Program-made: the position numbers and the translations under genes
Virus record (IMG/VR): IMGVR_UViG_3300021425_000158
Location: 1-26,495 of that record
DNA: 26,495 bases
Origin: a virus
Strand: one strand, 5' to 3'
In this document: positions 1-24,420 of the stretch, piece by piece
How the letters are laid out: each line of letters opens with the position of its first letter
How positions within the stretch are numbered: position 1 is the first letter of the stretch
Notes under the pieces: generated by a model
Database searches by the model: none
What the model was told of the DNA's origin: nothing
What the model saw: only the letters and a program-made list of their open reading frames with translations

Positions 1-3000
1 GTAATATCTCTAACAATATTCCAACATACATCGGCAATATGTTCCCATGTTTTGTATGTAGGTTCTTTTTGGTCAGCAGGTAATACTGAATTTGCATTTT
101 CAAAATACAATCTTGCGAAGTTGACAGAACATGTATTTCCACCAAACTTAACATCTTGTATTAAGCCATCAACCAAGTAACCTGTATCTCTTTCACAATC
201 AGCAACACTGTATGATAGTGAAGGATAATTAACTGCGATGTAAGCAGTAACTTCAGCAATAATAAATGCTCTGTTTAGAAGTAATTGATTACCAGCTTGA
301 TTGTGGTCATTACTTAATGCAGCAGCTGAACCGTATACCTTAGTTCCAACATTGCCTGGACCATTCTGCATAATATCAATGATCTTATCAAATTGAGTAT
401 TGGCTCTTGTTAAAGCAACGCCTGTAACATTAGGATCTGCGGCAATTTTACCTTTAAGGAAATTAATTGCTGCTACTGTTTCAACCAATTGGTCATTAAT
501 AACTTTGTTAGCACCTACAGAACCAGTTCTATATCCTAGTCCCATGAATTGTGAATTCCAAGTACCGCCTGTAGCAACATCTCGTCTTACAGCATCAAGA
601 ATAAATCCTGAATCTCTTGAACATTTTTCTCCATTGAATACAAAGTATTGAGAATCTAGGTAAGATGATATTTCTTTTGCCAAGAAGTCTTTGTTTGTTT
701 GTAATTGTTCTCTTGCGTATTGTCCTTGAGAATTGTAAGTAACTTTTGAAACCGCATCTTTTTCAACCGATACAAATGTATGAGTTCCACCTGAGCTTGC
801 AGCTAACTGAACAGTAATATCATTACCGGCAACATTAGTAATTGCCATAGGTTGATTATAATTAGAATCACCTTTTCTTGGGTATGAATGTTCAGTTGCG
901 TTTGAATCTTGAGCACATGTATATGTAAAGCTATATGGAGCAAACTCAATATAATCGTTTGTTGTTAAATCATGACCAGGAATTGTAATTACACTGATTC
1001 CTGTAGTAGGATCGTATGTAGCAGTTGTTGGTGTATAATGCTTAACATAAGAAGCAGGATTTGGGAAGTATAATGCATCAGCATCAATTGCTCCAACCTC
1101 TGCTCTAACGAATGTATGGGCCCCACCAGTACCTGTTCCAATGTTCATTGTAATTGTATCAGCGGTAACCGAAGAAAGTCTTACAGGGGTCTTATATGCA
1201 GGATGGTGAGCCTGTGGTGCAGCGTGTTCTGTAACATTTCCATCTAATGTACAAGTAAAGACAACCGAGTTAGGTTTAATCATTACCATGTCACCAGCTT
1301 GTAAATTATGTTTACCAATTGTTGCTACAAATACTCCGGTTGCCGCATCGTATGTTGCATCGTATGGAGTATAGGTAGAAACATATTTTGCTGTTTTAAC
1401 ACTGTCAGCAGTTGCTGATACAAATGAATGAACAGATGTATCTGTTGAAGTACCTACATTAACTGTAAATGTTGTGGAAGTTGTTGCCGCAACTACAACC
1501 GGCTTCTTATAAGCAGGATGTTGTCTTTCACCTTTAATTGCTCCTGTGATTGCCGATACAAATGTATGAGCTCCACCGCCGTTAGCAACAGCACCAACAT
1601 TACATCCAATTACATTTCCATTGACTGAAGTTAATTTAACTTTCTTCTTATAGAAAGGATGATGTTCTTCAGGAACAGGATGATTTGTTGAGTTACCGTC
1701 AAGTTCACAACTGAATGTAATACCTCTTGTAGCAAATTCAATCTCATCACCAATTCTTAACTTATGAGTACCAATGTCTGCTGTAAATTCACCAGTGACA
1801 GGATCGTAAGAAGCAGTAGTTGGAGTGAAACTTGTAATTGTTGTAGTTGGGTATGTATGCTGTGTGGCATTACCATCAGTTGCACAAGTAAATGTTAAAC
1901 TGTCAGGTGCAAGTAATACTTCATCTCCTACTTGTAAATCATGTGATCCAACTGTGATAACTGATAAACCAGTAACTGGGTCATATGTTGCATTAGATGG
2001 AGTATATGTTTTACCTGAACTGTTTAATATACCAATGATTTTATCGAATGCTTCGTCCGAACGATGTTCTGATGCATTATCAGAAATACCAATTACATGA
2101 CTAATTGCATTTGTTAAAGCCGATACAAAAGTATGAGCATTAGAACCACCTGTTCCTACATAACATACAATTGTGTTTGTTGTTACTGAATGAACAGGAC
2201 AAGGGTGATTATAGAAAGGATGCCCAGGATTTGGAACAGCGTCATTAGTAGGTCCGCTTCCTGTATCACAACTAAATGTAATACCATCTTCAAGGAATCT
2301 TACATAATCTCCAGGTTGTAAACCGTGACTTCCGATAGTTGCTTCAAACCTTCCTGTTTCAGGATCGTAAGTTGCATCGGTTGGAGTAAACTGAGCGCCA
2401 ATCTCATCTGTATTTACTCTTGTTTTTAATTCGTTAATTGCACCAGTTGTTTCTACCAACTGTTCATTGATTACATTATCAGCAAGTGTAGTACCTGAAC
2501 GATAAGCAATACCTGTTTGGATTGCATTATAGTTTGAACCTGTTAGGATGTCTCTTTCAACCGCAGGTAAGATATAAGATTCAATATCTCTACGACACTT
2601 ATCAGAATTATATCTGAAGTATGTAGTATCAATATATCCTAGTACTAAGTCTTGTAAGAATTGTCTATTTGATTGTAACTGCTTTCTTGCATTTCTCTTA
2701 TCAGCAGGAATAGTTGCAGAATCACTCCATGTAATTGCTGAACCTAATATAGAAATTGCATTAGGTAATGCTTCAACAAAGTTATGGGTATCAATAATAT
2801 CCGACTTGCCTACATTGATTGTAATCTTAGTAGCATTTGCGCCGATGACTTCAATTGGAGTACCTGCAGCTGGGTCAGAAGCTCTAGGATATCCTGTTCT
2901 TGAAACATTATTATCTCGGTCACAAGTAAATATGAGGCCACCTGTTTTCAGAAGAATCTTTCTTCCAACAGTTAATCCGTGGCCGCTGCCGAGTGTGATA

Positions 3001-6000
3001 ACTGATAAACCAGTAGATGGGTCATAAGTTGCGGCAGTAGGTGTAAATTGTTTTCCTTTATTTTCAAGGATAGATAAAATTTCATCGTAGCTTGCATCAA
3101 GTCTTGAAGAAGCCTCGTATGAATCTCCATCTATTAATTCGTTTGTCTGATCTTTTAATCTGCGATATGCTTCAACTGTTTCGTTATTTTGATTTTCCAT
3201 AACAGTTTTAGCAGTTGCCATGTAATATGCACGACCTGCAGTAACAGAGTTATAGTTAGTATCAAATAACATATCGTTCTTAACAGCAGGTAAGATATAA
3301 TCTGAAACATCTCGACGACAAGCTGCTGAATCATATGCATAGAATTCGTCGTTGTTCTCAATCCAATCAATTAGCTCATCTTTAATAAATTCAGAGTTAT
3401 TTTGTATCTGATTTCTAGCTGCGGTATAAGGAACAGAAGTATCTTGCCATATAATCGGGTTGATGTTCTCTTCACCGTACTCTAAGACGTTTAGAAGTTC
3501 CCCAAATGATGTTTCAACGCGTTCGTTGATTTCATTATTACCTGATACAAATATTTCTTTTGTTCTATCTCTTAAGTATTCTAATGCACCTTTTGTTTCT
3601 TCAAGCTGTTCTCCTGGAACAACATAACTGATTGGAGACCTATAAGTAATTCCACCAAGTCTTCCCCAATAGTTAGTATCAAGTGCAATATCATATCCTG
3701 TACCATCAAGGACAATACCTGAATCTCTTAAACATTTATCTGAATCGTATTCTTGATAACCTAATCCACCGTTTACTGAATTGGCTGTTAGGTAACCAAC
3801 CACGTCATCAATAATATCATCACCTGCATAATCAATTGATTGTGCAAATGTAGTATTACCAACAATGGTTGCTGAAGTTGATTTTGGAGCAAAGAAACTG
3901 GTAGTACCTTTTGCTCTCATTGATATATCACCGAACTGAGTACCTGAGTTGTTCAATGTCATTTGACCACCGTTCAATGCATAGAATGCACAACGAACGA
4001 AGATTGACAATGAACCAATACCGTTAACACCAGCACCGTCTCGAGCAACATATCCTAAACCGTTTTGAGTACGAGGTGTGAAACCAAAACATAATACGTA
4101 TGTATATAGTGAATCGGTATCAAGTACTCTTCTATCTGCAAGTACACAACCTCCACCACGACCTACCGCTCTGTTAGGGAAGTCGTCAATACCAATACTT
4201 TCAACAACACCTACACCACCAGATTCTGAAGTTACTGTATCACCTACAGCAAATCCTACACCGTTCTTAAGGTTACGAACTCTAATCTTACGTTGTGTAT
4301 TAACATCTCCAGGTGTTATACCTTTTAGTGCATCTAATGAATCATCCCAAGATAAGTAACCAACTGCACCAGATGAGAATACAACTTCATCATCAAGTTT
4401 CCATAAACTATCTGCTGGGTTTGCGTTATTACCTGTCATACCAACTGCTAAGGTAAATTCTCTACCTAAGTCAGCAAGAGTACCTTTTGAGTTATAAGGA
4501 TTAAGAGGTGGTTCAACATCTTGTCTTAAGAAGTTTGATAACTGAGTACTATCTCTAAGATATGGAGATCTTAATAGTTTAGCACCTGGTCGATATGCAA
4601 TCGCAAATCCACCTTCTGGGAAATCAAAGTTATCAACTTGGAAGTTTTGGTAACCAAATCCTTGAACGTAACAACCTGAACCTACAAGAATACCGTTATT
4701 GTTTTCGTATCCTTTTTCAAGTTCAATTACAGTTGCATACTGACCTGCGGTTGAAGTACAGGAACAATCATCAGGTAACTGCAGATTACCTTTTGTATAA
4801 TAAGTTCCTGGTCCAACCGAAATATGAACAGCATTATTAATTGCGTTACGATTGAGTTCACCACCTGCTTTTTCTAAACAAAGCTCAAATGCTTTTTCTA
4901 ATGTTCTAACAGGTTGTAATTGAGTACCTGGGTTATCGTCGTCACCTGAACCTGCGTCAACGTGTACTTTAAGTGCCTGAGCAGTTTTCTTCGATACTTC
5001 ATCGAATAATTGTCCAAAGTTAATTTGTTCTGTAGCACCTGTCTTTTCGTTACGGATTGCGAAATAACTTTCATCATCCATTGGAGGCTCAAATTCATTA
5101 TTGAGTTCCAAGTCGAAGTCAACAAGTTTGGATTTATTAATTGTACCGCCGTCAAAGACCGAACCTGAAACAGTACCATTCTCAAAACTTGAATTATTTG
5201 AAGATAAGCCATCGGCAGATGAACTTCTGATTGTAATATCAGTTGCTACAACATTGTCCATTGTACCTTGGAAACTTGAATTCGCAAGTGTACCGTTAGA
5301 GAACAATGATTGGTCAATTGTTGAATTTGTAAGGGTTACATTATTACCTGTTCCGTCGTTAAATTCAGAACTTGTAATGACAATGTTATTTGCTGTAGAG
5401 TCTTCAATAACACCGTCTGAAAAATTAGAATTAATAATTGTGGCATTATCAATATCACCATCAGTGTATGTTGAATTGGTGATGTCAGTACCTTCCATTG
5501 TACCACGAAGAATATCAGTATCTTCAATGTTACCATTTTGGAATAGTGAAGCATCAAGAGTTACATTGTTTCCTGTACTATCAAGGATAGAAGAATTTGT
5601 AATAACAACATTGTTAGCAGTTCCGTCATTAAACTCAGAACTTGTTATGATTGTGTTATTTACTGTTGAGTCTGTAATCGCAACATTGTTTGCTGTTGAA
5701 TCTGTAATCGCAACATTGTTAGCAGTACCGTCGTTAAATTGAGACGATGTAATAAGGAAGTTATTTGCTGTGCCATCTAAAAGAGTAGTATTACTAAAGA
5801 TGTTGTTATTACCGCTGCCATCATTAAATGCAGAATTTGTAATTACAATATTATTAGCAGTAGAATCTTCAATTGTACCTAAGTCAAACGAAGACGATGT
5901 GATTGCGATATTATTAGCAGTAGAATCAAAGATTTCAGTATCTGTGATTGTACCTCTTAAGAAATCGGTATCTTCAATGGACGAGTTATCAATGTCAACA

Positions 6001-6215
6001 TTATCGAGGCGTGAATCAGACATAACCACACCGGAGATTGTTCCCCCAGTGATTTTAATTCTTGAAAAGATTTCGTATTGAATTGCTTCAACTAATTCTT
6101 TTCGAGTAATATTACTCGTGCCATCGTCACCTTGGACAAGGTTGACAATAACGAACAGATCTTCCGTCCTGGTATTGGCACCGGTAATCGGAGGTAATTC
6201 TGAAATTTTTGCCAT
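1..6215 (-). CDS. Giant repeat-rich virion structural protein (fibre/spike-like), 3' end outside window
   Basis: The reading frame opens at ATG 6215-6213 (N terminus MAKISELPPITGAN) and has no stop before base 1, giving at least 2071 residues. The start follows AAAAGGAAAAGAG, a good ribosome-binding site, and a TATAAATA element. Visible domains in order: a short N-terminal head; an array of five-residue repeats (about residues 55-320); a pectate-lyase-type beta-helix entry with a D-A-G-S-G-D-D-D-N-P-G-T motif near residue 415 and a beta-rich stretch to about 800; then alternating modules. Five modules carry a Cys-x-Arg-Asp motif (Cys828, 966, 1207, 1865, 2007), and about six are ~100-residue beta modules with Y-D-P-x-T-G and H-T-F-V-S signatures. 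No enzyme motif is seen. The family resembles giant structural proteins of marine T4-like phages; the role as a long fibre or spike is inferred from its architecture and its position after the baseplate genes. Confidence 0.85.
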   Translation of the reverse strand, partial: MAKISELPPITGANTRTEDLFVIVNLVQGDDGTSNITRKELVEAIQYEIFSRIKITGGTISGVVMSDSRLDNVDIDNSSIEDTDFLRGTITDTEIFDSTANNIAITSSSFDLGTIEDSTANNIVITNSAFNDGSGNNNIFSNTTLLDGTANNFLITSSQFNDGTANNVAITDSTANNVAITDSTVNNTIITSSEFNDGTANNVVITNSSILDSTGNNVTLDASLFQNGNIEDTDILRGTMEGTDITNSTYTDGDIDNATIINSNFSDGVIEDSTANNIVITSSEFNDGTGNNVTLTNSTIDQSLFSNGTLANSSFQGTMDNVVATDITIRSSSADGLSSNNSSFENGTVSGSVFDGGTINKSKLVDFDLELNNEFEPPMDDESYFAIRNEKTGATEQINFGQLFDEVSKKTAQALKVHVDAGSGDDDNPGTQLQPVRTLEKAFELCLEKAGGELNRNAINNAVHISVGPGTYYTKGNLQLPDDCSCTSTAGQYATVIELEKGYENNNGILVGSGCYVQGFGYQNFQVDNFDFPEGGFAIAYRPGAKLLRSPYLRDSTQLSNFLRQDVEPPLNPYNSKGTLADLGREFTLAVGMTGNNANPADSLWKLDDEVVFSSGAVGYLSWDDSLDALKGITPGDVNTQRKIRVRNLKNGVGFAVGDTVTSESGGVGVVESIGIDDFPNRAVGRGGGCVLADRRVLDTDSLYTYVLCFGFTPRTQNGLGYVARDGAGVNGIGSLSIFVRCAFYALNGGQMTLNNSGTQFGDISMRAKGTTSFFAPKSTSATIVGNTTFAQSIDYAGDDIIDDVVGYLTANSVNGGLGYQEYDSDKCLRDSGIVLDGTGYDIALDTNYWGRLGGITYRSPISYVVPGEQLEETKGALEYLRDRTKEIFVSGNNEINERVETSFGELLNVLEYGEENINPIIWQDTSVPYTAARNQIQNNSEFIKDELIDWIENNDEFYAYDSAACRRDVSDYILPAVKNDMLFDTNYNSVTAGRAYYMATAKTVMENQNNETVEAYRRLKDQTNELIDGDSYEASSRLDASYDEILSILENKGKQFTPTAATYDPSTGLSVITLGSGHGLTVGRKILLKTGGLIFTCDRDNNVSRTGYPRASDPAAGTPIEVIGANATKITINVGKSDIIDTHNFVEALPNAISILGSAITWSDSATIPADKRNARKQLQSNRQFLQDLVLGYIDTTYFRYNSDKCRRDIESYILPAVERDILTGSNYNAIQTGIAYRSGTTLADNVINEQLVETTGAINELKTRVNTDEIGAQFTPTDATYDPETGRFEATIGSHGLQPGDYVRFLEDGITFSCDTGSGPTNDAVPNPGHPFYNHPCPVHSVTTNTIVCYVGTGGSNAHTFVSALTNAISHVIGISDNASEHRSDEAFDKIIGILNSSGKTYTPSNATYDPVTGLSVITVGSHDLQVGDEVLLAPDSLTFTCATDGNATQHTYPTTTITSFTPTTASYDPVTGEFTADIGTHKLRIGDEIEFATRGITFSCELDGNSTNHPVPEEHHPFYKKKVKLTSVNGNVIGCNVGAVANGGGAHTFVSAITGAIKGERQHPAYKKPVVVAATTSTTFTVNVGTSTDTSVHSFVSATADSVKTAKYVSTYTPYDATYDAATGVFVATIGKHNLQAGDMVMIKPNSVVFTCTLDGNVTEHAAPQAHHPAYKTPVRLSSVTADTITMNIGTGTGGAHTFVRAEVGAIDADALYFPNPASYVKHYTPTTATYDPTTGISVITIPGHDLTTNDYIEFAPYSFTYTCAQDSNATEHSYPRKGDSNYNQPMAITNVAGNDITVQLAASSGGTHTFVSVEKDAVSKVTYNSQGQYAREQLQTNKDFLAKEISSYLDSQYFVFNGEKCSRDSGFILDAVRRDVATGGTWNSQFMGLGYRTGSVGANKVINDQLVETVAAINFLKGKIAADPNVTGVALTRANTQFDKIIDIMQNGPGNVGTKVYGSAAALSNDHNQAGNQLLLNRAFIIAEVTAYIAVNYPSLSYSVADCERDTGYLVDGLIQDVKFGGNTCSVNFARLYFENANSVLPADQKEPTYKTWEHIADVCWNIVRDI
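735..3057 (-). repeat. Six ~100-residue beta modules in giant structural gene
   Basis: Each unit starts with a T-P-T-x-A-T-Y-D-P-x-T-G-like signature, continues with G-x-H-x-L-x-x-G-D and a T-F-T/S-C-x-x-D-G-N motif, then H-P-x-Y-x-x-P-V, and ends in a V-G plus H-T-F-V-S-A segment. Approximate limits of the units are 2740-3057, 2100-2399, 1400-2013 (split), 1540-1840 (inside the split unit), 1075-1385 and 735-1050. A Cys-x-Arg-Asp module lies between the first two units. The copies are diverged, so the expansion is old. Modules of this kind are common in giant structural proteins of marine phages; their function is unknown to me. Confidence 0.75.
5253..6050 (-). repeat. Pentapeptide-like repeat array inside giant structural gene
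   Basis: About 50 consecutive five-residue units run in one register, for example NNVAI TDSTA, then NNVVI TNSSI, with I/V/L/F or A at the last place and N/D/S/T/G elsewhere. At DNA level this is a 15-base periodicity. After about residue 320 the register slips by one and the pattern fades by residue 366. Such repeats normally fold as a right-handed quadrilateral beta-helix, so this section is probably a stiff rod. The repeat is seen directly in the translation; the fold is inferred. Confidence 0.8.
5661..5720 (-). repeat. 30-base tandem duplication (two copies, 28/30 identical)
   Basis: Bases 5661-5690 and 5691-5720 are adjacent copies differing at two positions, sharing an identical 20-base core (tctgtaatcgcaacattgtt). 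Each copy encodes two pentapeptide units (about T-D-S-T-A/V-N-N-V-A-I), so gain or loss of a copy keeps the frame and lengthens or shortens the predicted rod by two units. Confidence 0.85.
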
Positions 6216-15212: not shown

Positions 15213-16904
15213 TTAACCCCTTGCCCTTATTCTTGGCCGAGGATATGTTCGTCCTGAAGTAGGTCTTGCTTTTGCATTTAATTTTGGAAAACTCATTCCT
15301 GTTTCAGGTCGTTGATTTACCCATCTTAATATCAAATTGGCAGCACCTTGTAAACTTTCAAAATCTAAAGTACTATCTGCACCTGTGTCATACATTGCAT
15401 TATTTGTTCCATTTGCTTGAAGCCATGCTAACGCTTCTGCTTGAGTCATATTTGGATTACTTTCTGCAAGTAATGCAAGTACACCCGTAACCTGTGGTGC
15501 TGCCATACTTGTTCCGCTTTTCTTTTCTTGCCAATATGCTGAATCTCTCGAATCTTGAAAAGCTCCTGAGGATCCTGGTATAGCACTAACAATTCCATAA
15601 CCTGCTGCATGAATATTACATGCATTACCACAATTTGAAAAACTTCCTTTACGATCGTTTTTTGCTATTCCTAAAGCTCCACATACAATGGCATCACTAT
15701 CACTCATACCGTTTCTTGATATTGTTCTGTGAGAATAATCAGATTCAGCGTATTGGTCACCACCTGAATCCCTCCAATAAACTACATTATCGTGATCTGT
15801 ACCAGATTTTGTATACTTTTGGTAATCATTACCTGATCCCACTACAAATATAATACCATCATTTTTTGCGTCCTCAGCATCGGCCGCGTCTGATGTTTTG
15901 TAAAAAGGTATATACCAATTACCATTGGCGGCAACTACGATACCTCTTGCTTCTAATTCTGCATCGGTTAAATCTCTACCGTCATCACCCCAAGTATCAA
16001 GAGTAACTCCGCGATATCTAAACGCTCCAACGCCAACTGTGCCTACTGGGGCGAAAAATGTTGAACCCTCCTTTCCTCTTCTAAAAGCATAGCTGTGATT
16101 AGAGATCGTTGGGTTTCTTCTGCCTGTCTCAGGATTAATTGATTTATTATTATGCCATTGGCGAATATAATCCCAATAAGTTGTTGTGTCTAATCCATTG
16201 TTTCCATGATTTTGTCCAAAAGGTTGTATATTATATATGTTTGCATCTCTTGCCCACCCTTGTGTATTTCCTGCCACAATACCAGCAACGTGAACTCCGT
16301 GTTCTTCTCCGTCATCGGAGTAATCATAATTTCCGTTTGAGCCCAATCCTAAAGCAGACGTAAGAGAGAACCAATTAAAATGTTGAACTCTCGTTCCACC
16401 TGTACCGTCTGAATTTACAGCAAACTCTGGGTGATTCATTACTGTTGTATTAATTACACTATCAACAATTAGTACATCAACATTTTTTCCTGATGCGGTA
16501 ATTGTATTTGTTCCTGAAGAAGCAGTATTAGTTCCGTCTGAACCCCATTCACCACTTAAAGCATTGTCTCCGATAATATGACGATATAACCCCCAGTTTA
16601 AATCGTTGGATGATGGGACAAAGTTGTCCCTATCGAAGTTTCCCGAAATATCGTACCCATCATATTTACCAATGGCTGATTCTGCATTCTCTTTTGACTC
16701 AACATCCCATACTCTCGGATCTTCTTTTAGTTGTAATACTTCTTCAGCGGTTAACATATAATGAGTGTTACGACTGATTGGTCTTCTTAACTGCAAGTCA
16801 ACTGCTCTATCAGGAATGTATAAGTCACCTCCTGGGGTTTCCATATCATTATAGAAATCTTCCAGGTCTTCTCTATTATGAAGAGTGACAATATATTCCT
16901 TCAT
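15213..16904 (-). CDS. Subtilisin-family serine protease (S8)
   Basis: A 563-residue subtilase. Residues 1-about 75 look like an I9-type inhibitory propeptide (K-E-Y-I-V-T-L at the start, E-V-L-Q-L-K-E-D-P-R-V-W-D-V-E at its end). The catalytic set is complete: Asp148 in V-D-V-L-I-V-D-S-V-I, His202 in E-H-G-V-H-V-A-G-I, oxyanion Asn359 in V-G-S-G-N-D, and Ser466 in G-T-S-M-A-A-P. There is no signal peptide, so it acts inside the infected cell or as part of the virion. The start lies four bases after the stop of the cupredoxin gene, with an AGAGG ribosome-binding site inside that gene's last codons. Position among wedge genes suggests a role in processing tail proteins or in digesting host surface proteins; both are inference. 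Confidence 0.9.
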   Translation of the reverse strand: MKEYIVTLHNREDLEDFYNDMETPGGDLYIPDRAVDLQLRRPISRNTHYMLTAEEVLQLKEDPRVWDVESKENAESAIGKYDGYDISGNFDRDNFVPSSNDLNWGLYRHIIGDNALSGEWGSDGTNTASSGTNTITASGKNVDVLIVDSVINTTVMNHPEFAVNSDGTGGTRVQHFNWFSLTSALGLGSNGNYDYSDDGEEHGVHVAGIVAGNTQGWARDANIYNIQPFGQNHGNNGLDTTTYWDYIRQWHNNKSINPETGRRNPTISNHSYAFRRGKEGSTFFAPVGTVGVGAFRYRGVTLDTWGDDGRDLTDAELEARGIVVAANGNWYIPFYKTSDAADAEDAKNDGIIFVVGSGNDYQKYTKSGTDHDNVVYWRDSGGDQYAESDYSHRTISRNGMSDSDAIVCGALGIAKNDRKGSFSNCGNACNIHAAGYGIVSAIPGSSGAFQDSRDSAYWQEKKSGTSMAAPQVTGVLALLAESNPNMTQAEALAWLQANGTNNAMYDTGADSTLDFESLQGAANLILRWVNQRPETGMSFPKLNAKARPTSGRTYPRPRIRARG

Positions 16905-16908
16905 TTAA

Positions 16909-18798
16909 TTAAGCCTCTAATTGTAGAATTTCTACAGCTACTGTAATTGATTGTGTACTACCACTTTTGTTTCTTACTTTAACAGGTATGTTTGTTGTTG
17001 GTGTCGATTCTAAATTATAACCAATTGTTCCTGGAGATAACTTTACAGTTTGTGCACCTGTTGTAATTACTTCAGCAATAACACCTGCATCTGGTGCAGG
17101 GTCTGTTGTTTCTGCTCTTGAGTTATCTGCTGTTCTAGAACTGTTGTCTGTGTAAAGAGTTACCCAAGCCGCAGCTGATGTTGTGATTGTATATAATGCG
17201 TATCCTTTATACCCAGTAATATCAATATCTGTTGATACTCCATCAGCAATTGATGTTGTAGCCTGAGAAGGAGATGTACGAGATGGTAAACTTCCACCGC
17301 CACCGCCGCCTGCAGCTGCCTCAACAACAATAGTTCCTGTCATATTTGAGTGGGCTTGACATACGTATTTGTAATTTCCAGAAATACTTGCTGGTATTTT
17401 CCAGAATAAAGCGCCGCCCATTCCTGCGTTTGCGTTTGAACCTGAATAATAGTTACTAGAATCTAAAGCAACCAATCCTTCGTTGTAATCAGTACCGCCT
17501 GAATCTTGAATTACAAATGGGTGAGTAGCACCACCTGCATCTGTTAAATCAAATCCAACTGTCGTTCCTGCTTTAACATAAATTGTTGGGTTATCAGTTG
17601 TTCCGTATTGGTCAAAACGATATGAAGTAGAACCGTTATGTGTAACCTTTAGTACGGTAGCAGCATTTAAGAAGCTGTTTTCAAATAATGCTTTATCTAC
17701 ATTGTTTGTTGGTTGTTGGTCTATATCTCCATAATTTGGAGTGAATGATACGTTTCTCCATGTGGAATCATTTGGGAAATAACTTAAAATATCTCCACCT
17801 GATGGGCTTGTAATTGTAGTATCAGTAATATCAGTCATAGCAACTGAACCGCCACCACCGCCACCGGTTTGGTCTGTTACCCAAGCATAATCACTACCAT
17901 TCCAAGATAGGATTTGTCCACTTGAAGCTCCACTTGTATTTAGATGAGTATCGACATCAGAGTTGGTATAAGATCCACCACCTCCGCCGCCAGTTTGGTC
18001 GGCAACCCAAGCAAAGTCAGAACCGTCCCAAGATAAGATTTGATTTGTTTGTGCACTACTTACATTAAGGTGAGCACTTACATCGTTATCAGAATAAGAA
18101 CCGCCTCCTGCCTGAGATATCCAAGCATAGTCAGAACCGTTCCAAGATAAGATTTCATTTGACGATGCTGAACTTGTATTTAAATGATTGTCTACATCAG
18201 AAGTTTGAAACAATGCAGGCAATGCAGCCCATTGATAATCTGAACCACTCCATTGTAATACTTCGTTAGATTGAGCTGAACTTACGTTTAAATGTCCATC
18301 AACATCATTGTTAGCATAAGAAGCTCCGCCGCTTCCGCCTGTCATTTCAACCCAACTATAACTTCCGTTTGCGCTTGTACCAAGTACATAACCATCGGTT
18401 TCACTATTTAATATATTGGCCGAATATACAAATGTGTTGAGAGGGTCTGTGTAATTAGTAATTGCTCCGCCTGAAGTATCAGAGAGTAATTTTCTCCAAG
18501 ATCCATGAGCGTAATATAAGGATCCTGTGTCGTGTGCATGTCCGATTGAACCATGATAGGTACTTGGACTAACGGCAAGCAACTCTGCTTCCGTATCGTA
18601 TAAGAATGATATCTTGTTTGGTTTTCCTGTATAATCCAAATTACCGTTAATGTCAAATAAATTGATTGGATTATTTGCATCACCTAATGCAAGATATAAC
18701 TCGTTAAAGTTATCGTTTGTTTTATCGAATGCATTACGTAACGGATCACCTGTCCCGTCATTAGCGGATGCACCGATGTTAATTATTTGCTTGGCCAT
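16909..18798 (-). CDS. Fibre-like structural protein with tandem repeats and a cupredoxin domain
   Basis: A 629-residue protein. Residues 4-37 (I-N-I-G-A-S-A-N-D-G-T-G-D-P, then F-D-K-T-N-D-N-F-N-E-L) match a head segment frequent in marine phage fibre proteins. Residues about 157-316 hold four ~42-residue repeats joined by poly-Gly linkers. Residues about 360-500 form a cupredoxin-like domain with a full type 1 copper set: His426 (T-H-P-F-V-I), then Cys480, His483 and Met486 in Y-V-C-Q-A-H-S-N-M-T-G. The C-x2-H-x2-M loop equals that of amicyanin. After a second poly-Gly linker comes a beta-rich C-terminal domain. AGGAAAG precedes the ATG and a TATAAATA element lies upstream. Copper binding is inferred from ligands; it could be only a structural beta-sandwich. 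Confidence 0.8.
   Translation of the reverse strand: MAKQIINIGASANDGTGDPLRNAFDKTNDNFNELYLALGDANNPINLFDINGNLDYTGKPNKISFLYDTEAELLAVSPSTYHGSIGHAHDTGSLYYAHGSWRKLLSDTSGGAITNYTDPLNTFVYSANILNSETDGYVLGTSANGSYSWVEMTGGSGGASYANNDVDGHLNVSSAQSNEVLQWSGSDYQWAALPALFQTSDVDNHLNTSSASSNEILSWNGSDYAWISQAGGGSYSDNDVSAHLNVSSAQTNQILSWDGSDFAWVADQTGGGGGGSYTNSDVDTHLNTSGASSGQILSWNGSDYAWVTDQTGGGGGGSVAMTDITDTTITSPSGGDILSYFPNDSTWRNVSFTPNYGDIDQQPTNNVDKALFENSFLNAATVLKVTHNGSTSYRFDQYGTTDNPTIYVKAGTTVGFDLTDAGGATHPFVIQDSGGTDYNEGLVALDSSNYYSGSNANAGMGGALFWKIPASISGNYKYVCQAHSNMTGTIVVEAAAGGGGGGSLPSRTSPSQATTSIADGVSTDIDITGYKGYALYTITTSAAAWVTLYTDNSSRTADNSRAETTDPAPDAGVIAEVITTGAQTVKLSPGTIGYNLESTPTTNIPVKVRNKSGSTQSITVAVEILQLEA
17850..18322 (-). 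repeat. Four ~42-residue tandem repeats with poly-Gly linkers
   Basis: Each unit reads about S-Y-x-x-x-D-V-x-x-H-L-N-x-S-x-A-x-S/T-x-x-I/V-L-x-W-x-G-S-D-Y/F-x-W. The third and fourth units end in D-Q-T followed by five or six glycines; the second ends in three glycines. The two D-Q-T-linked copies are the most similar, so they look like the most recent duplication. The units probably form small stacked beta modules along a fibre shaft. Confidence 0.8.
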
Positions 18799-18847: not shown

Positions 18848-21800
18848 TTAATACGTAACATCAAAGTTGTTCTCAAGATAGTTAGTTAACATATTTCTCA
18901 TATCTGGAGATACCGTGTGTCCTACATCGTCATTTAACCAAATTACATCACCGTAATTACTTACCTGACTATTTGCTCCGTATGTATCACGATTTGCCGA
19001 TGAAATATTATACCCAGACCATCCAAAGGCTTGAGCAAATCTCCATGCAGATTCTTCAGCACTTAAAAACTTAACTCCGAATGTTTCTGTGAATTCATCG
19101 TTTCCACCAAACGGAACTACTGTATCTTGTTCACCATTCATAAACAATAGTTTTCTTGGTGTTATTGTTGTTTGTTCTGTTGTATACCCATCATAAGGAC
19201 CCCAATCATCTCCAGTGTATTCATGACTAATTGGGTAATAGAATTTATTGTTTCTATATTGTCCTTCATGCATTTGAGAAATCATACATACAATTGCGTC
19301 TACACCTGTATCATCAATTTCAACGGCAGCTCTCAATGCCATTGCTCCACCATTACTTGTACCAATAATACGAATCTTGGTTGGGTCAACATTATTATAA
19401 GTCTTAAGTGTTGTAATCAATTCTTGTAACATTAATATGTCAGGTCCATTCGACTGTTCATTGGCAATGTTCCAAGAATTTAGATATCCTTGAACACCAA
19501 TTAGAATATGTCCTGGTAAATCATTGGCAAAGTTAGCAACCATTCCTGCACCATTACCACCATTACCGTGTAATAAAATTGCTACAGGGAAAGGTCCAGT
19601 ACCTGCAGATGGCATGCCTACCGTTACATCATAATCATGGAATCCTTGACTCCAATTTCTTGTTTGTGTCAAATCACCAGAGGATCCTGTACTTAATGTC
19701 AATCCACCAGTACCGCCAGGAGCATGATCTGCTGAAACCAATGTACTATCTGAAGTATAATTAGTAATACCTGCATTAAGATCTGTAATCTCGGCAACAT
19801 CAAACGGAGAACCACCACCTTGGTCATTAAACAATCTTAAGAACCTTGGTTTGATTGTTCCACCTGCATATGCTTTAAAGATAAAGTCACCAAATAGTTT
19901 TGAACCTGCTAGGTGAACATTTTCTTTTAATAATTTTTCATATTCTTGTAAAGGAAGAGACGATTTAATTTGGTATGAATATTCTTGGAAGAAGTTACTA
20001 TCTTGTACTCTCATTCCCGAATCATAATACTCTAATTGTGTATTTGCTGTTTGTCCTGGTTGTATTCTATAACCACTTAAGTGAGAATTTTGACCTGCCC
20101 AGTATCCTTCTGTCTTACCTTGTGTTTCGGCTTCAATAATACCATAAGCAATAAAGTCGTTATTAGAAGTTCTTAACTCACCAATACCTGTAGCAAAATC
20201 AATAATTTCATTATCAGGTACTTCGTATTCAACATAACCAAACCCTGAATTTAAAATATTTACTTCTTTTACTTTACCAATTTGGAATTCTGTATCTGCA
20301 TTAATAACAGCATTATCACCAAACTTTTCTGGACTATTATAATCATTTGAAATAACAGCAACATTAAATACGAAACTCGGATTACTTGCCAATACAATAT
20401 TTTCATCAGAATTCAAACCACTATAATTAAATGGAGTAATTTTAATAACACCTGCTGTAGAATTAATAGTTTTTACAACACCAAATACATTACTTGATGT
20501 TCCTTTAATTCTGTCACCAATATCAAAACTACCTGCATCGGCCGCATCAACAAATTTAATAAGCTGATCTTTTCTATCTAAGTTTTTAATTAATGAATCT
20601 TGTGCAATCGCAAACACATCAAAATTATAATCAGCACCAGGATTGATATTATTAAACCCTTGAATACGACCAATTGTTAAATCTTGAATATCAAACGCTT
20701 GGTTAAGTGGCGTTGATAAATTGACTGGTGAAGCAGTACCTGACATAGAAGCAGTTGCTTCATAATCAGCAGCATTAAGAACTGTTGTTAAGTGTGGTGT
20801 TATTACGTCGGTAATAACAGATGCAATTGATGTATCAGTTAATCCTGAAACAATTACATCGTCTGAATTATTTGTGTCAGGATATAAAAGACCAGGAGAC
20901 GATGCATTAACAGCAGATAGACTATTACCAGGTTGTACTAAGTCAATTACTAGTTCATTAGAACCTCTATTCGTTGACACAATACTATTTGGTGTAAGTC
21001 CTGTTGACCCATCTGGAGTTTTAACACCAATGGCAGAAATATTTTGTCCTACAACAGTTACTGACCTACCGTTATTATCAGTTAAAGTTTCACCGATAAT
21101 AAATTCTTGATTAAATCCATCTTCACTATTATTTAAAATAATTGCTTGGTCAGAAACAATTAATCGAGTGTTATCTATTGTATAACCATAACCGCCGTCT
21201 TCTAACTCATAAGTAATCTCACCTGAAATTTCATCAGTAACATCGGTGACAATTGCTTTACCTGCATACCCATCTTTTTGTAATACATCAAAGATTTCAC
21301 CAACTTGTCTTCCTGCTGCGTTTCTTAAGGCACCTTTACCTTTTCTTTCAACAACTCTAAATTTTGAAAGTGATCCATTTGTTTTACCAAAAGAAACAAC
21401 CTCTCCGTTAATATTACAAAGAATGTCTTCGTACTTTTTAAATGAACCTTGAATTCCATCAAGATACATCACAGGAGTTTTAACACCATTTAATATAAAG
21501 AAGTTAATTGACCTAACTGAAGCCTTTGCTTTTGTAATACTTCCTTCTATGTTACGAGCTAACAAATCAAAGTAACTATATTCTTTGTCACTTTTTGATA
21601 AGAAGAAATTATTATTTGGAAACATTTGTAAGTATACACCTTGCTTCCAATCTGAATCTGAAACCTTCATCATTTTAGATGCAGGGTATATAATTTCAAT
21701 ATCAAACTCTTGATAGAAAATAGCAAAGAATAATTCTATACCACGGGCAGTACCTTTTGACCTATATAAGTCAAGGATATTTTTAATAATGAATTTAATA

Positions 21801-22054
21801 ATATCAGTCTTGAGTGGAAGGTCAGCAAGAAACTTTTTCTTAAAGAATATAATCATATTCTCTAATGTAGAATCTACATCTCTTGTTTCAAATAATCTTC
21901 TTGACTGATAGATATGTTGGTCTTCTTGAGTTTCAGACCATTTATAATAATCTTCTACTAATTGAACAAGCTCAGGTCCATCTTCCCTATAAATCGCAGG
22001 GAATTGCGTTTTTATGAAAAGCGATATATTTTTTTCGATTTCACCCTGAGGCAT
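18848..22054 (-). CDS. gp7-position baseplate wedge protein with fused C-terminal esterase-like domain
   Basis: A 1068-residue protein. Residues 1-about 150 (F-P-A-I-Y-R-E-D-G-P, L-Y-R-S-K-G-T-A-R-G, F-Y-Q-E-F) match the N-terminal region of marine T4-like wedge proteins placed between gp6 and gp8. Residues 150-740 are beta-rich. A Gly/Ser/Thr linker (about 741-805) leads to an alpha/beta-hydrolase of the PHB-depolymerase/feruloyl-esterase type. It shows an oxyanion H-G-N-G-G at 829-833, nucleophile Ser900 in G-T-S-N-G-G, Asp977 in G-E-Q-D-T-V-V-P and His1046 in V-G-H-T-V, a complete triad in the normal order. T4 gp7 (1032 residues) has no such domain to my knowledge. The gp7 identity rests mainly on synteny. 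The hydrolase probably faces outward and may trim acyl or ester groups of the host surface; substrate unknown. Confidence 0.75.
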   Translation of the reverse strand: MPQGEIEKNISLFIKTQFPAIYREDGPELVQLVEDYYKWSETQEDQHIYQSRRLFETRDVDSTLENMIIFFKKKFLADLPLKTDIIKFIIKNILDLYRSKGTARGIELFFAIFYQEFDIEIIYPASKMMKVSDSDWKQGVYLQMFPNNNFFLSKSDKEYSYFDLLARNIEGSITKAKASVRSINFFILNGVKTPVMYLDGIQGSFKKYEDILCNINGEVVSFGKTNGSLSKFRVVERKGKGALRNAAGRQVGEIFDVLQKDGYAGKAIVTDVTDEISGEITYELEDGGYGYTIDNTRLIVSDQAIILNNSEDGFNQEFIIGETLTDNNGRSVTVVGQNISAIGVKTPDGSTGLTPNSIVSTNRGSNELVIDLVQPGNSLSAVNASSPGLLYPDTNNSDDVIVSGLTDTSIASVITDVITPHLTTVLNAADYEATASMSGTASPVNLSTPLNQAFDIQDLTIGRIQGFNNINPGADYNFDVFAIAQDSLIKNLDRKDQLIKFVDAADAGSFDIGDRIKGTSSNVFGVVKTINSTAGVIKITPFNYSGLNSDENIVLASNPSFVFNVAVISNDYNSPEKFGDNAVINADTEFQIGKVKEVNILNSGFGYVEYEVPDNEIIDFATGIGELRTSNNDFIAYGIIEAETQGKTEGYWAGQNSHLSGYRIQPGQTANTQLEYYDSGMRVQDSNFFQEYSYQIKSSLPLQEYEKLLKENVHLAGSKLFGDFIFKAYAGGTIKPRFLRLFNDQGGGSPFDVAEITDLNAGITNYTSDSTLVSADHAPGGTGGLTLSTGSSGDLTQTRNWSQGFHDYDVTVGMPSAGTGPFPVAILLHGNGGNGAGMVANFANDLPGHILIGVQGYLNSWNIANEQSNGPDILMLQELITTLKTYNNVDPTKIRIIGTSNGGAMALRAAVEIDDTGVDAIVCMISQMHEGQYRNNKFYYPISHEYTGDDWGPYDGYTTEQTTITPRKLLFMNGEQDTVVPFGGNDEFTETFGVKFLSAEESAWRFAQAFGWSGYNISSANRDTYGANSQVSNYGDVIWLNDDVGHTVSPDMRNMLTNYLENNFDVTY

Positions 22055-22069
22055 TATTCTTCTCTCTTA

Positions 22070-23998
22070 TTAATAACTTGAGCCGCTTCCACCACTCGAA
22101 GTGTTGGTTGTCGTATTAGGAGGATTCGTTGCTGATTGAGTTGCGACAGGAGTTTGGAATTCTTCCAAGTCCATTACAACTTTAACATCTGTATCTCTTA
22201 ATATGAATACACGACCTTGTGGTGCTTTAACATCGTTGTCTATTGTTTTTGCCATCACTTTAATTGCTGAACCCGTATATGATTCCACTTTAAAGTTTGT
22301 TAATTTAACTTCACCCTTTTCGTAATCAACTGTACCTGCGGTTGGATTTAAAATTTGTGGGTTAGTAACTTCATCAGTAATAATCATAATATTACCATTA
22401 CCATCATCTTGGAAGAATACACAAGTACCGTCAATGTCGAACGGAGAAGACTTAATCGCAGGCTTATAACTTGTAAATCCATTTGCTGCCTTATAAGGAT
22501 ATGGCTTAACGAGTTTGGTTTCAAATCTAAATGTTGGGTTTGTGGCAAAATTAACTGGTGGAGAATAATCAATAATTGGAGCAATTGAAATTTCACTACT
22601 TAAAATACCAGTATCCAAATTATCAATTGCACTTGATAGTTTTGACGATCTTAATGTCTTATCAAATCCTTCAAGATTATCATCAGAATATTTTTGTATT
22701 TCAGCTCGTACCAATGTTTCAAGTTGGTCTGCATTCTTTTCTGTATTCTTTCTGCTGTAATTTACAATCACCGTCATATCAGCATATACGAATTCTGTTT
22801 GTTTAAAGATAGGCTCAATACCTAATGGAGCACGTTCTCTTAAGTAAGCAATATATGAATTAGATAATGTTGAAGAAATGATTTGTGTATCGTCATTTAA
22901 ATAAACACTAATCGCAACTCTTCCGTATTGAGGTGGGTCAAGCTGTTCACCACCATAAGCAGAGACCGCAGAAATTTCAGGGAATGCCTGTTGTAATAAT
23001 ACTTCGTAATCTTTTGTTGTGACTGCTCTTTCTTGAACTTGTAATGCTTTAGGAGCAAAGTAACGAATGCTTTCCATTGATTCTCTTTCAGCACCACCTG
23101 CTGCAGCAGAAATTGTTCTACAAGTAATTGTTCCACCTTCAACAAAACTTGCACTGAAGTCTGCAGTTGAGCCTGCTCCGTTAGGTTCTGCACCTGAACA
23201 AATTCTATATCTTACTCTTACATCCTCAAATTCTTCAGGTTGTAAACCAAACTGATTCTTACCAAAATAAATTGAATAACGATCATCAAGATAAGGTTCT
23301 AAATAAAATACTTTATCTGTAGGTCTTACTCCGTAAATAGTATTGGCTCTTGTAAATACATTTGCGTCATCAGTTGCTTCAGCATCAACAAACACAACAA
23401 TGGAATCCGTATCCACTTCATTGTTTGTTAAATAAACTCTTAATACTCCATCAGCATCAACAATAAATCCTTCTCTTTGGAAACTCTGTAGCATTTCACC
23501 TTCATAAACATCAATGCTATCAGCAACAAATGTTCCAGGAGGATAAGTTGTTCCGTCGTTTGGATTTGTACCTACAACACGTCGAGCAGTATATACTTCA
23601 TCTGTTACGAAAGAATAACTCTCACCTTGATATGTTACACCAAATTCTGAATACCTTGGAATTGTAATTGTTGAGTCAGTAATGTCAGGAGCAACGATTT
23701 GTACTTGAATTGTTGCCTTTGCTGATTTACGAGATCTTGGAATATAATTTAATTCTTTAGCATGAGAAACGATTGAGTTCTTGAGGACGGCAGAGTCAAG
23801 AAACATTTCGTTAAGTGCCATATTTGTATAGAAGTTATTTTGATAACTATTAAAAGCAAGAACGTCCAAAAGGACACTCATATTAGAACCTTCAAAGTTA
23901 TAATCTTTAAACTGAGTTTGTGTTTGTAAATAAGTTCTTAACTGATCCTTAACGGAATCAAAGTCAAGTTCTGTAATTGGGGTCTTCGGATTTGCCAT
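22070..23998 (-). CDS. 6: Baseplate wedge subunit gp6
   Basis: A 642-residue protein, close to T4 gp6 (660 residues). The N-terminal region is typical of the gp6/baseplate J family: I-T-E-L-D-F-D-S-V, Y-N-F-E-G-S-N-M-S-V-L-L-D-V-L-A, N-S-Y-Q-N-N-F-Y-T-N-M-A-L-N-E-M-F-L-D-S and a K-E-L-N-Y-I-P-R-S segment. A middle T-T-K-D-Y-E-V-L motif (about 330-340) is also shared by the family. The C terminus ends in a short Ser/Thr/Gly/Asn-rich tail from about residue 620. gp6 rings hold the wedges together around the hub and drive the sheath trigger. The gene begins two bases after the gp25 stop. Confidence 0.92.
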   Translation of the reverse strand: MANPKTPITELDFDSVKDQLRTYLQTQTQFKDYNFEGSNMSVLLDVLAFNSYQNNFYTNMALNEMFLDSAVLKNSIVSHAKELNYIPRSRKSAKATIQVQIVAPDITDSTITIPRYSEFGVTYQGESYSFVTDEVYTARRVVGTNPNDGTTYPPGTFVADSIDVYEGEMLQSFQREGFIVDADGVLRVYLTNNEVDTDSIVVFVDAEATDDANVFTRANTIYGVRPTDKVFYLEPYLDDRYSIYFGKNQFGLQPEEFEDVRVRYRICSGAEPNGAGSTADFSASFVEGGTITCRTISAAAGGAERESMESIRYFAPKALQVQERAVTTKDYEVLLQQAFPEISAVSAYGGEQLDPPQYGRVAISVYLNDDTQIISSTLSNSYIAYLRERAPLGIEPIFKQTEFVYADMTVIVNYSRKNTEKNADQLETLVRAEIQKYSDDNLEGFDKTLRSSKLSSAIDNLDTGILSSEISIAPIIDYSPPVNFATNPTFRFETKLVKPYPYKAANGFTSYKPAIKSSPFDIDGTCVFFQDDGNGNIMIITDEVTNPQILNPTAGTVDYEKGEVKLTNFKVESYTGSAIKVMAKTIDNDVKAPQGRVFILRDTDVKVVMDLEEFQTPVATQSATNPPNTTTNTSSGGSGSSY

Positions 23999-24000
23999 CT

Positions 24001-24420
24001 CTATCTATTCCTTTGTAAAATAACATCCAACTGAATGGGTTGCTGATCATTACGAACATAAAAAGTTATCGTAACAAATACCTGACCGTTGTCAGGATCT
24101 GAACTTACACCAACATTAATTAATTGGGCTCTTGGTTCGTATGTCTGAATTGTAGATATTACTCTGTCTTCTATAAGCTTTAACGTACCAGGTGTCATAT
24201 TCTCAAATAACATTGCTCGAATATTACCGCCAATCCTTGGCTGCATTAATCGTTCACCACGATCCGTTAAAATTAAATTTTTAATTGATTCTTTAACTGC
24301 GTCTTCGTCTTTTAATAAGGCAATGTCTTTTGACACCGGACTTATGCGTAAGTCTTTATGAAAATCAGCATTAAGACTGATTTTCTTTTGTTTTGGTGAA
24401 ACTACATCTACTATTGCCAT
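24001..24420 (-). CDS. 25: Baseplate wedge subunit gp25 (GPW/gp25 family)
   Basis: A 139-residue protein of the family's usual size (T4 gp25 is 132). Key marks are D-I-A-L-L-K-D-E-D-A-V-K-E-S-I-K-N-L, then T-D-R-G-E-R-L-M-Q-P-R-I-G-G with L-F-E-N, and E-D-R-V-I near the centre, followed by the Y-E-P-R-A segment. gp25 contacts gp6 and gp53 in the wedge and nucleates sheath polymerisation. The start overlaps the upstream stop as TAATG, indicating coupled translation; gp6 follows at once. Confidence 0.95.
   Translation of the reverse strand: MAIVDVVSPKQKKISLNADFHKDLRISPVSKDIALLKDEDAVKESIKNLILTDRGERLMQPRIGGNIRAMLFENMTPGTLKLIEDRVISTIQTYEPRAQLINVGVSSDPDNGQVFVTITFYVRNDQQPIQLDVILQRNR

Follow-up and report, generated by a model that had tools for sequence, protein, structure and literature searches.

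A gp7-type baseplate wedge protein carrying a predicted alpha/beta-hydrolase domain in T4-like phages

Results

The window, i.e. the whole stretch of 26,495 nucleotides analysed in this study (positions 1 to 26,495 of IMG/VR record IMGVR_UViG_3300021425_000158), contains a gene, P0001, in which a gp7-type wedge protein is followed in the same frame by a predicted alpha/beta-hydrolase domain (Table 1). The genes gp25 and gp6 lie directly upstream, which gives the gene order gp25-gp6-gp7, and the nearest cultured gp6 proteins are those of Sinorhizobium phages (39.6% identity). No tRNAs were found in the window. At its other end, a long tail-fibre-like protein (3-6215, minus strand), which is open at the window end, exhibits many repeats of the N-N-x-x-I-T-[DNS]-S type in its first 350 residues.

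Table 1. Location of the fusion gene, its parts and its neighbours in the window
Feature	Position	Strand	Basis or remark
gp25	24001-24420	(-)	upstream context, before gp6
gp6	22070-23998	(-)	directly upstream context
gp7-hydrolase fusion gene (P0001)	18848..22054	(-)	single uninterrupted ORF, ATG start, 1068 aa
gp7 wedge part, residues 1-779	19718..22054	(-)	phrog_17744, gp7 profile match, ends of non-fused relatives
Junction, residues 780-792	19679..19717	(-)	Gly/Ser-rich, partly conserved P-G-G-x-G-G-L-T
Predicted alpha/beta-hydrolase domain, residues 793-1068	18851..19678	(-)	AlphaFold; Foldseek and VIA to 9j07; phrog_2576
Oxyanion-type motif H-G-N-G-G, residues 829-833	19556..19570	(-)	alignment
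Nucleophile Ser900, in G898-T-S-N-G-G	19355..19357	(-)	alignment and model
Acid Asp977	19124..19126	(-)	alignment
Base His1046	18917..18919	(-)	alignment
Next gene: gp9/10-type N-terminus and cupredoxin-like stretch	16909..18798	(-)	homologous stretch hydrolase-fused in ACG-2014h
Subtilase gene (P0006)	15213..16904	(-)	Peptidase_S8, E 3.3e-19; two genes downstream of the fusion gene

The cupredoxin-like stretch of the next gene contains the motifs T-H-P-F and C-Q-A-H-S-N-M, and its match to Cupredoxin_1 (E 0.0097) falls short of the cut-off. These motifs resemble the C-x2-H-x2-M variety of type 1 copper sites, and the strict pattern of this putative site was present in 12 locus rows, some of which share one contig. 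The subtilase gene sits within the wedge gene cluster, and in phage ACG-2014h and locus L177 a homologue of it forms one protein with the hydrolase. The first ~75 residues of the window's subtilase may represent an I9-type propeptide.

With regard to the N-terminal part of P0001, residues 1-779 are matched by PHROG 17744 (baseplate wedge subunit) at E 6.7e-90. A comparison with hhalign, in which a 9-row alignment (window, Cr30, phiM12, DLP6, pf16, X1, Mosig and two IMG/VR rows) was set against a 5-row alignment of T4-type gp7, aligned residues 641-826 of T4 gp7 to window residues 6-211 (probability 97.4, E 9.5e-12, 181 columns), and the identification as gp7 is based on this profile match to the T4 gp7 core. 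An 18-row alignment of close relatives against T4 gp7 alone was not significant (probability 1.2), and no PDB sequence was matched by phmmer with the gp7 part as query. PF23786 reached 19.3 bits in the window, against a cut-off of 27, and matched 6/6 rows (best E 5e-10); TIGR02242 gave E 0.15 in the window and matched 3/6 rows. The first-pass annotation had described a wedge protein in the gp7 position, and this was borne out and extended: judging from the profiles, residues 1-779 are a homologue of T4 gp7 itself rather than merely a protein in its place. The prohead protease family was matched in 1/6 contigs, and the psbA family, which served as a check for a cyanophage host, in 0/7 related contigs, all of them possibly incomplete.

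The same annotation had placed a hydrolase at residues 805-1068, attached by a flexible linker. A hydrolase domain does lie there, but the added module is slightly larger: given that non-fused gp7 proteins end at about residue 779 and that homology to cellular hydrolases begins at about residue 793, it spans approximately window positions 18851-19717. The Gly/Ser-rich composition of residues 780-792 agrees with the linker, whereas its flexibility is put in question by the near invariance of P-G-G-x-G-G-L-T. The AlphaFold model of the full-length protein was poor (pLDDT 63.8, pTM 0.35, with residues 1-135 and 652-784 below pLDDT 50) and does not, therefore, predict the position of the hydrolase on gp7; Foldseek of this model gave hydrolase-type matches only.

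The hydrolase domain on its own was modelled confidently (pLDDT 87.7, pTM 0.89). In this model, Ser900 (model residue 107) occupies the turn between strand 96-106 and helix 108-119, the canonical nucleophile elbow. All of the chains compared by VIA (1000/1000) reached Z >= 8. The two entries of the acetyl xylan esterase AoAXEB from Aspergillus oryzae, 9j07 and 9j08, ranked first by hmmsearch, Foldseek and VIA. The top PDB match, 9j07, had E 9.9e-11 in Foldseek, E 6.2e-8 in the hmmsearch profile search of PDB sequences, and Z 21.8 with an rmsd of 3.0 over 235 residues (19% identical) in VIA. AoAXEB is a member of CE1. On the basis of the modelled fold and the Ser-Asp-His order, the domain is assigned to the alpha/beta-hydrolase superfamily. 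Sequence and alignment reproduced exactly the residue numbers given earlier for the triad (Ser900, Asp977 and His1046) and for H829-G-N-G-G, and the lack of a hydrolase fold, which had been named as a reason to abandon the idea, was not observed. A chance triad was ruled out by fold, conservation and profile matches.

A search against CE1 and PHB-depolymerase families had also been proposed, and here no curated cut-off was reached. NF050058 (PHA depolymerase, NCBIfam) matched residues 814-1001 at E 9e-10, with 43.5 bits against a curated cut-off of 150, TIGR01840 had 16.2 bits against 107.85, PF00756 had 13.9 bits against 22, and PF10503 was absent from the Pfam matches of the domain. NF050058 was the best NCBIfam model in 20/20 rows, yet so far under its cut-off that "PHA depolymerase" was rejected as a family name. 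No match was obtained by phmmer of the window domain against PDB sequences. PHROG 2576, labelled as of unknown function, spans residues 779-1063 (E 6.7e-63).

The substrate cannot be read from the fold, since feruloyl esterases, PHB depolymerases and thioesterases score close behind AoAXEB. In VIA, 9j07 was followed by a feruloyl esterase and then by a PHB depolymerase, and thioesterase and lysophospholipase matches were only about 2 Z lower, so that a lipid or another ester could also be the substrate. A hydrolase active on phospholipid, on the acyl chains of lipid A or lipoprotein, on a storage polyester or on a peptide, which might for example aid membrane passage, is considered rather unlikely. 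Such an enzyme would be in keeping with the matches to the PHB depolymerase 8daj (Z 20.0), to lysophospholipase and acyl-protein thioesterase (6bje and 5syn, Z about 20) and to carboxylesterases, with the first rank of NF050058 among NCBIfam models, and with a Peptidase_S9 match below the cut-off (E 0.0015). Every method nevertheless places the two AoAXEB entries nearest, and one cellular relative bears a sulfatase on the same protein and one a dockerin, although the margins are small. Since relatives bear a sulfatase or a dockerin and the best match is CE1-like, we favour a polysaccharide ester, with lipid esters as the main alternative.

The fusion was found to recur in related contigs. A scan of IMG/VR with the gp7 part only yielded 36 loci, namely 23 fused loci, 10 cut off before the gp7 end and 3 with a complete gp7 without hydrolase; among the 26 that reach the gp7 end, the 3 non-fused ones stop exactly at the junction. 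In one fused locus (L063 726-3798), the gp7 frame is broken up into two ORFs that overlap and comprise 387 and 658 residues. When three scans were pooled, 78/93 contigs were fused, a count that is biased because the hydrolase was the query in two of the three, whereas the gp7-only scan is unbiased. The other 15 comprise 10 in which the contig end falls within gp7, 2 that are truncated in the hydrolase or immediately ahead of it, and the 3 without hydrolase. These three gp7 proteins end in "...ADHEPV" or "...ADHEPTP", where the fused ones continue with "ADHxPGGxGGLTL", and gp7 without hydrolase occurs in otherwise similar gene clusters. These proteins represent a natural empty site, and the hydrolase is a clean add-on.

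A frameshift or an assembly artefact, which the first-pass annotation had named as what would undo the fusion, did not occur. Since in cyanophages the hydrolase is encoded by its own gene just downstream of the gp7 homologue, a false join or read-through between two genes is conceivable; the frame is, however, uninterrupted, those 78 contigs, whose hydrolases are 55-85% identical, have the same join, and the gp7-fused rows form one clade, so that the probability of an artefact is negligible and the independent contigs rule it out. The fusion is a true one and an old one. In a tree of gp7, the non-fused loci L057 and L059 were placed separately among fused rows, with weak supports (80/50 and 86/52), very long outgroup branches and shuffled labels doing as well in 47 and 72 of 500. 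This weakly supported placement would mean that the hydrolase was lost.

Conservation was assessed in 38 rows, no two of them identical, from the window, IMG/VR and four cyanophages. Asp977 is kept in 38/38 rows, His1046 in 37/38, the remaining row being cut off before the histidine, and Ser900 in 35/38, with glycine in the other 3. The rows with glycine (L021, L023 and L024, with the near-copies L022, L025 and L026) form one clade, which also exhibits H-E-N-G-G in place of H-G-N-G-G, with the remainder of the domain retained. Judging from its sequences, this clade speaks against the domain being always an enzyme; it shows that loss of the nucleophile need not mean loss of the fold, and in this clade the domain may have a binding role. 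A domain that is mainly binding or structural, in which the hydrolase fold serves as a ligand-binding head and catalysis is dispensable, is nonetheless improbable. The glycine nucleophile and the glutamate in the oxyanion motif of this clade would fit such a head, as would the gp7 relatives without the domain and the non-catalytic binding function of a carbohydrate esterase active site described in the available text of one report (PMC2661963), but the retention of serine in 35/38, aspartate in 38/38 and histidine in 37/37 readable rows would be unexpected for it.

The dN/dS values (Nei-Gojobori, 224/253 pairs) were 0.10-0.42 for the hydrolase and, similarly, 0.14-0.46 for gp7 residues 1-650; they are rough, because dS is high in many pairs, and indicate purifying selection on both parts. 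Between L038 and L039, dS was 0.23 in the hydrolase and 0.77 in gp7. The hydrolases being much closer than the gp7 parts, this suggests that the module was exchanged.

Beyond viruses, 43 loci were obtained when bacterial and archaeal genomes were scanned; 36 of these carry Bacteroidota titles, and identity reaches 45%. When five cellular proteins were scanned, a T9SS sorting domain was present in all 3 Bacteroidota ones, a dockerin in the Neomarinimicrobiota relative (L150) and a sulfatase in the Opitutia relative (L130), a context typical of the extracellular degradation of polymers. The Opitutia protein (L130 7284-13130) comprises about 1,940 residues, with the hydrolase, the sulfatase and ten matched InlB-type repeat stretches. 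With regard to gene neighbours, a further PHB-type esterase with dockerin adjoins L150 and a further secreted esterase adjoins L132, the others being housekeeping or unrelated; no clear polysaccharide locus was found among the 10 neighbouring proteins scanned. In a 53-row tree, a branch (98/95) separates the viral rows from the others, and within the viral rows those fused to gp7 form one clade (100/99), while the YHYH-fused rows were not resolved as a single clade. If the root lies between bacteria and viruses, the tree would imply one capture and one joining to gp7, with the other carriers elsewhere.

The history of the domain in phages is modular: three carriers bear copies, namely gp7 itself, one protein with YHYH and one with subtilase and cupredoxin parts. 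In the phage collection, the hydrolase domain was found in 65 records, all of them Synechococcus phages or "Cyanophage", at <60% identity, and the gp7 part in 23 records, none of which is a cyanophage; hence, no cultured phage with the gp7-hydrolase fusion was found in this collection. Three of the four cyanophage records examined (S-ShM2, S-SSM4 and ACG-2014d) exhibit a gene of 573-590 residues between a giant structural gene and a gp9-like gene. The hydrolase of these Kyanoviridae YHYH-hydrolase proteins (S-ShM2 ADO97705 and its counterparts; PHROG 2576) is 34-40% identical to that of the window. Their genes, annotated as "gp7" or "hypothetical", have the gp7 homologue on one side and the gp9 gene on the other and are separate from gp7, and the N-terminal half of the S-ShM2 protein is a YHYH domain (PF14240, E 1.4e-39) in place of gp7. 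No YHYH match was found in P0001, whereas in L050 the gp7-hydrolase gene is directly followed by a separate YHYH gene. In related contigs, YHYH was found in 0/7 and 0/1, counts that are uninformative because controls likewise gave no match.

The third carrier is that of ACG-2014h / S-MbCM7 (AHB80591, 974 residues), located in a tail/fibre gene cluster, in which a hydrolase 38% identical to that of the window is attached to a subtilase homologous to P0006 and to a stretch at the C terminus that resembles copper proteins (PF00127 at E 0.0014, narrowly short of the cut-off). This protein joins counterparts of the subtilase gene and the gp9-like gene, which are separate in the window.

The giant "structural protein" of S-ShM2 (record 61318-79914; L186 5819-9001) was matched as a gp7 homologue over residues 653-792 (probability 98.1, E 1.2e-13), so that the S-ShM2 gene annotated as gp7 (SShM2_094, YHYH and hydrolase) is not gp7. 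According to one report, cyano- and pelagimyophages lack T4 gp7, and YHYH is among several domains that occur in unidentified structural proteins from marine myophages (PMC7029224). The gp7-core homologues of the window lineage and of S-ShM2 speak against this absence, and gp7 is thereby identified in phages where it was said to be missing.

Discussion

From fold, conservation and relatives, we infer an activity, a substrate, a copy number and a position in the virion. The domain is probably a relative of CE1-type carbohydrate esterases, namely a serine carboxylester hydrolase that is carried on the gp7 of each wedge and removes O-acyl groups from surface glycans at adsorption. The gp7 part would anchor the enzyme domain to each baseplate wedge. 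T4 has one gp7 per wedge and six per baseplate, and six domains would be present per baseplate if the same holds here. While the baseplate comes to rest on the host, these domains would remove O-acyl groups, most likely acetyl, from the surface polysaccharide near the tail tip, and this deacylation may loosen or un-cap the glycan and allow the tail to reach the membrane or the final receptor. Alongside the hydrolase, other virion-borne modules from this cluster, namely the subtilase, YHYH and cupredoxin-like ones, would be at work. If this is true, six or so active sites would be located on the membrane-facing plate, where contraction is triggered.

The proximity of the subtilase gene and the occurrence of the hydrolase apart from gp7 on some cyanophage genes could also point to a role in assembly, or to cleavage by the subtilase into a soluble enzyme that acts, for example, on debris or on the receptors of superinfecting particles after lysis. 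Nothing tested indicates cleavage, however, and the junction sequence is conserved; such a role is considered very unlikely.

On a broader level, it is conceivable, although we lean towards doubting it, that the wedge region of marine T4-like phages constitutes an exchangeable slot for extracellular enzymes, in which one captured secreted esterase was re-attached to three unrelated carriers, lost, swapped and once turned into a dead binding head. The surface-processing toolset of the phage (esterase, protease and possible copper protein) would then change by domain exchange, beyond tail-fibre change alone. The esterase proposed here provides a function-bearing hypothesis for PHROG 2576 and for part of the cyanophage genes annotated as "gp7" or "hypothetical", and the natural variants with the domain, without it or with a catalytically dead form make its role directly testable. 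Among the best matches in the open-licence PMC literature, none deals with a wedge protein that is fused to a hydrolase.

Compared with known systems, the domain has the fold, the triad order and the H-G-x-G-G and G-x-S-x-G motifs in common with AoAXEB (9j07) and other CE1/PHB-depolymerase-like esterases. These are secreted free enzymes, whereas the window domain is part of a wedge protein gene. The secreted Bacteroidota hydrolases, e.g. that of an Aureispira MAG (L129, which PHROG 2576 matches at E 2e-72), are up to 45% identical over the domain but have a secretion signal region and a T9SS tail where the window protein has gp7. The gp7 proteins of T4, of the Sinorhizobium phage phiM12 and of the Caulobacter phage Cr30 have a homologous core and the same place after gp25 and gp6; they lack the hydrolase, and T4 gp7 exhibits about 640 extra N-terminal residues ahead of the shared core. 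In Pseudomonas phage K8, a wedge protein is reported to take part in receptor binding, without an enzyme (PMC9887876). The closest working analogue would be the deacetylases of tailspikes and tail fibres, for instance those of phages PP99, Possum and Aristophanes, for which virion-borne O-acetyl removal is described in the available texts (PMC6989608, PMC9569702, PMC8471582). In these phages the enzyme resides in the tailspike or fibre, whereas the predicted enzyme domain of the window is carried by a baseplate wedge subunit.
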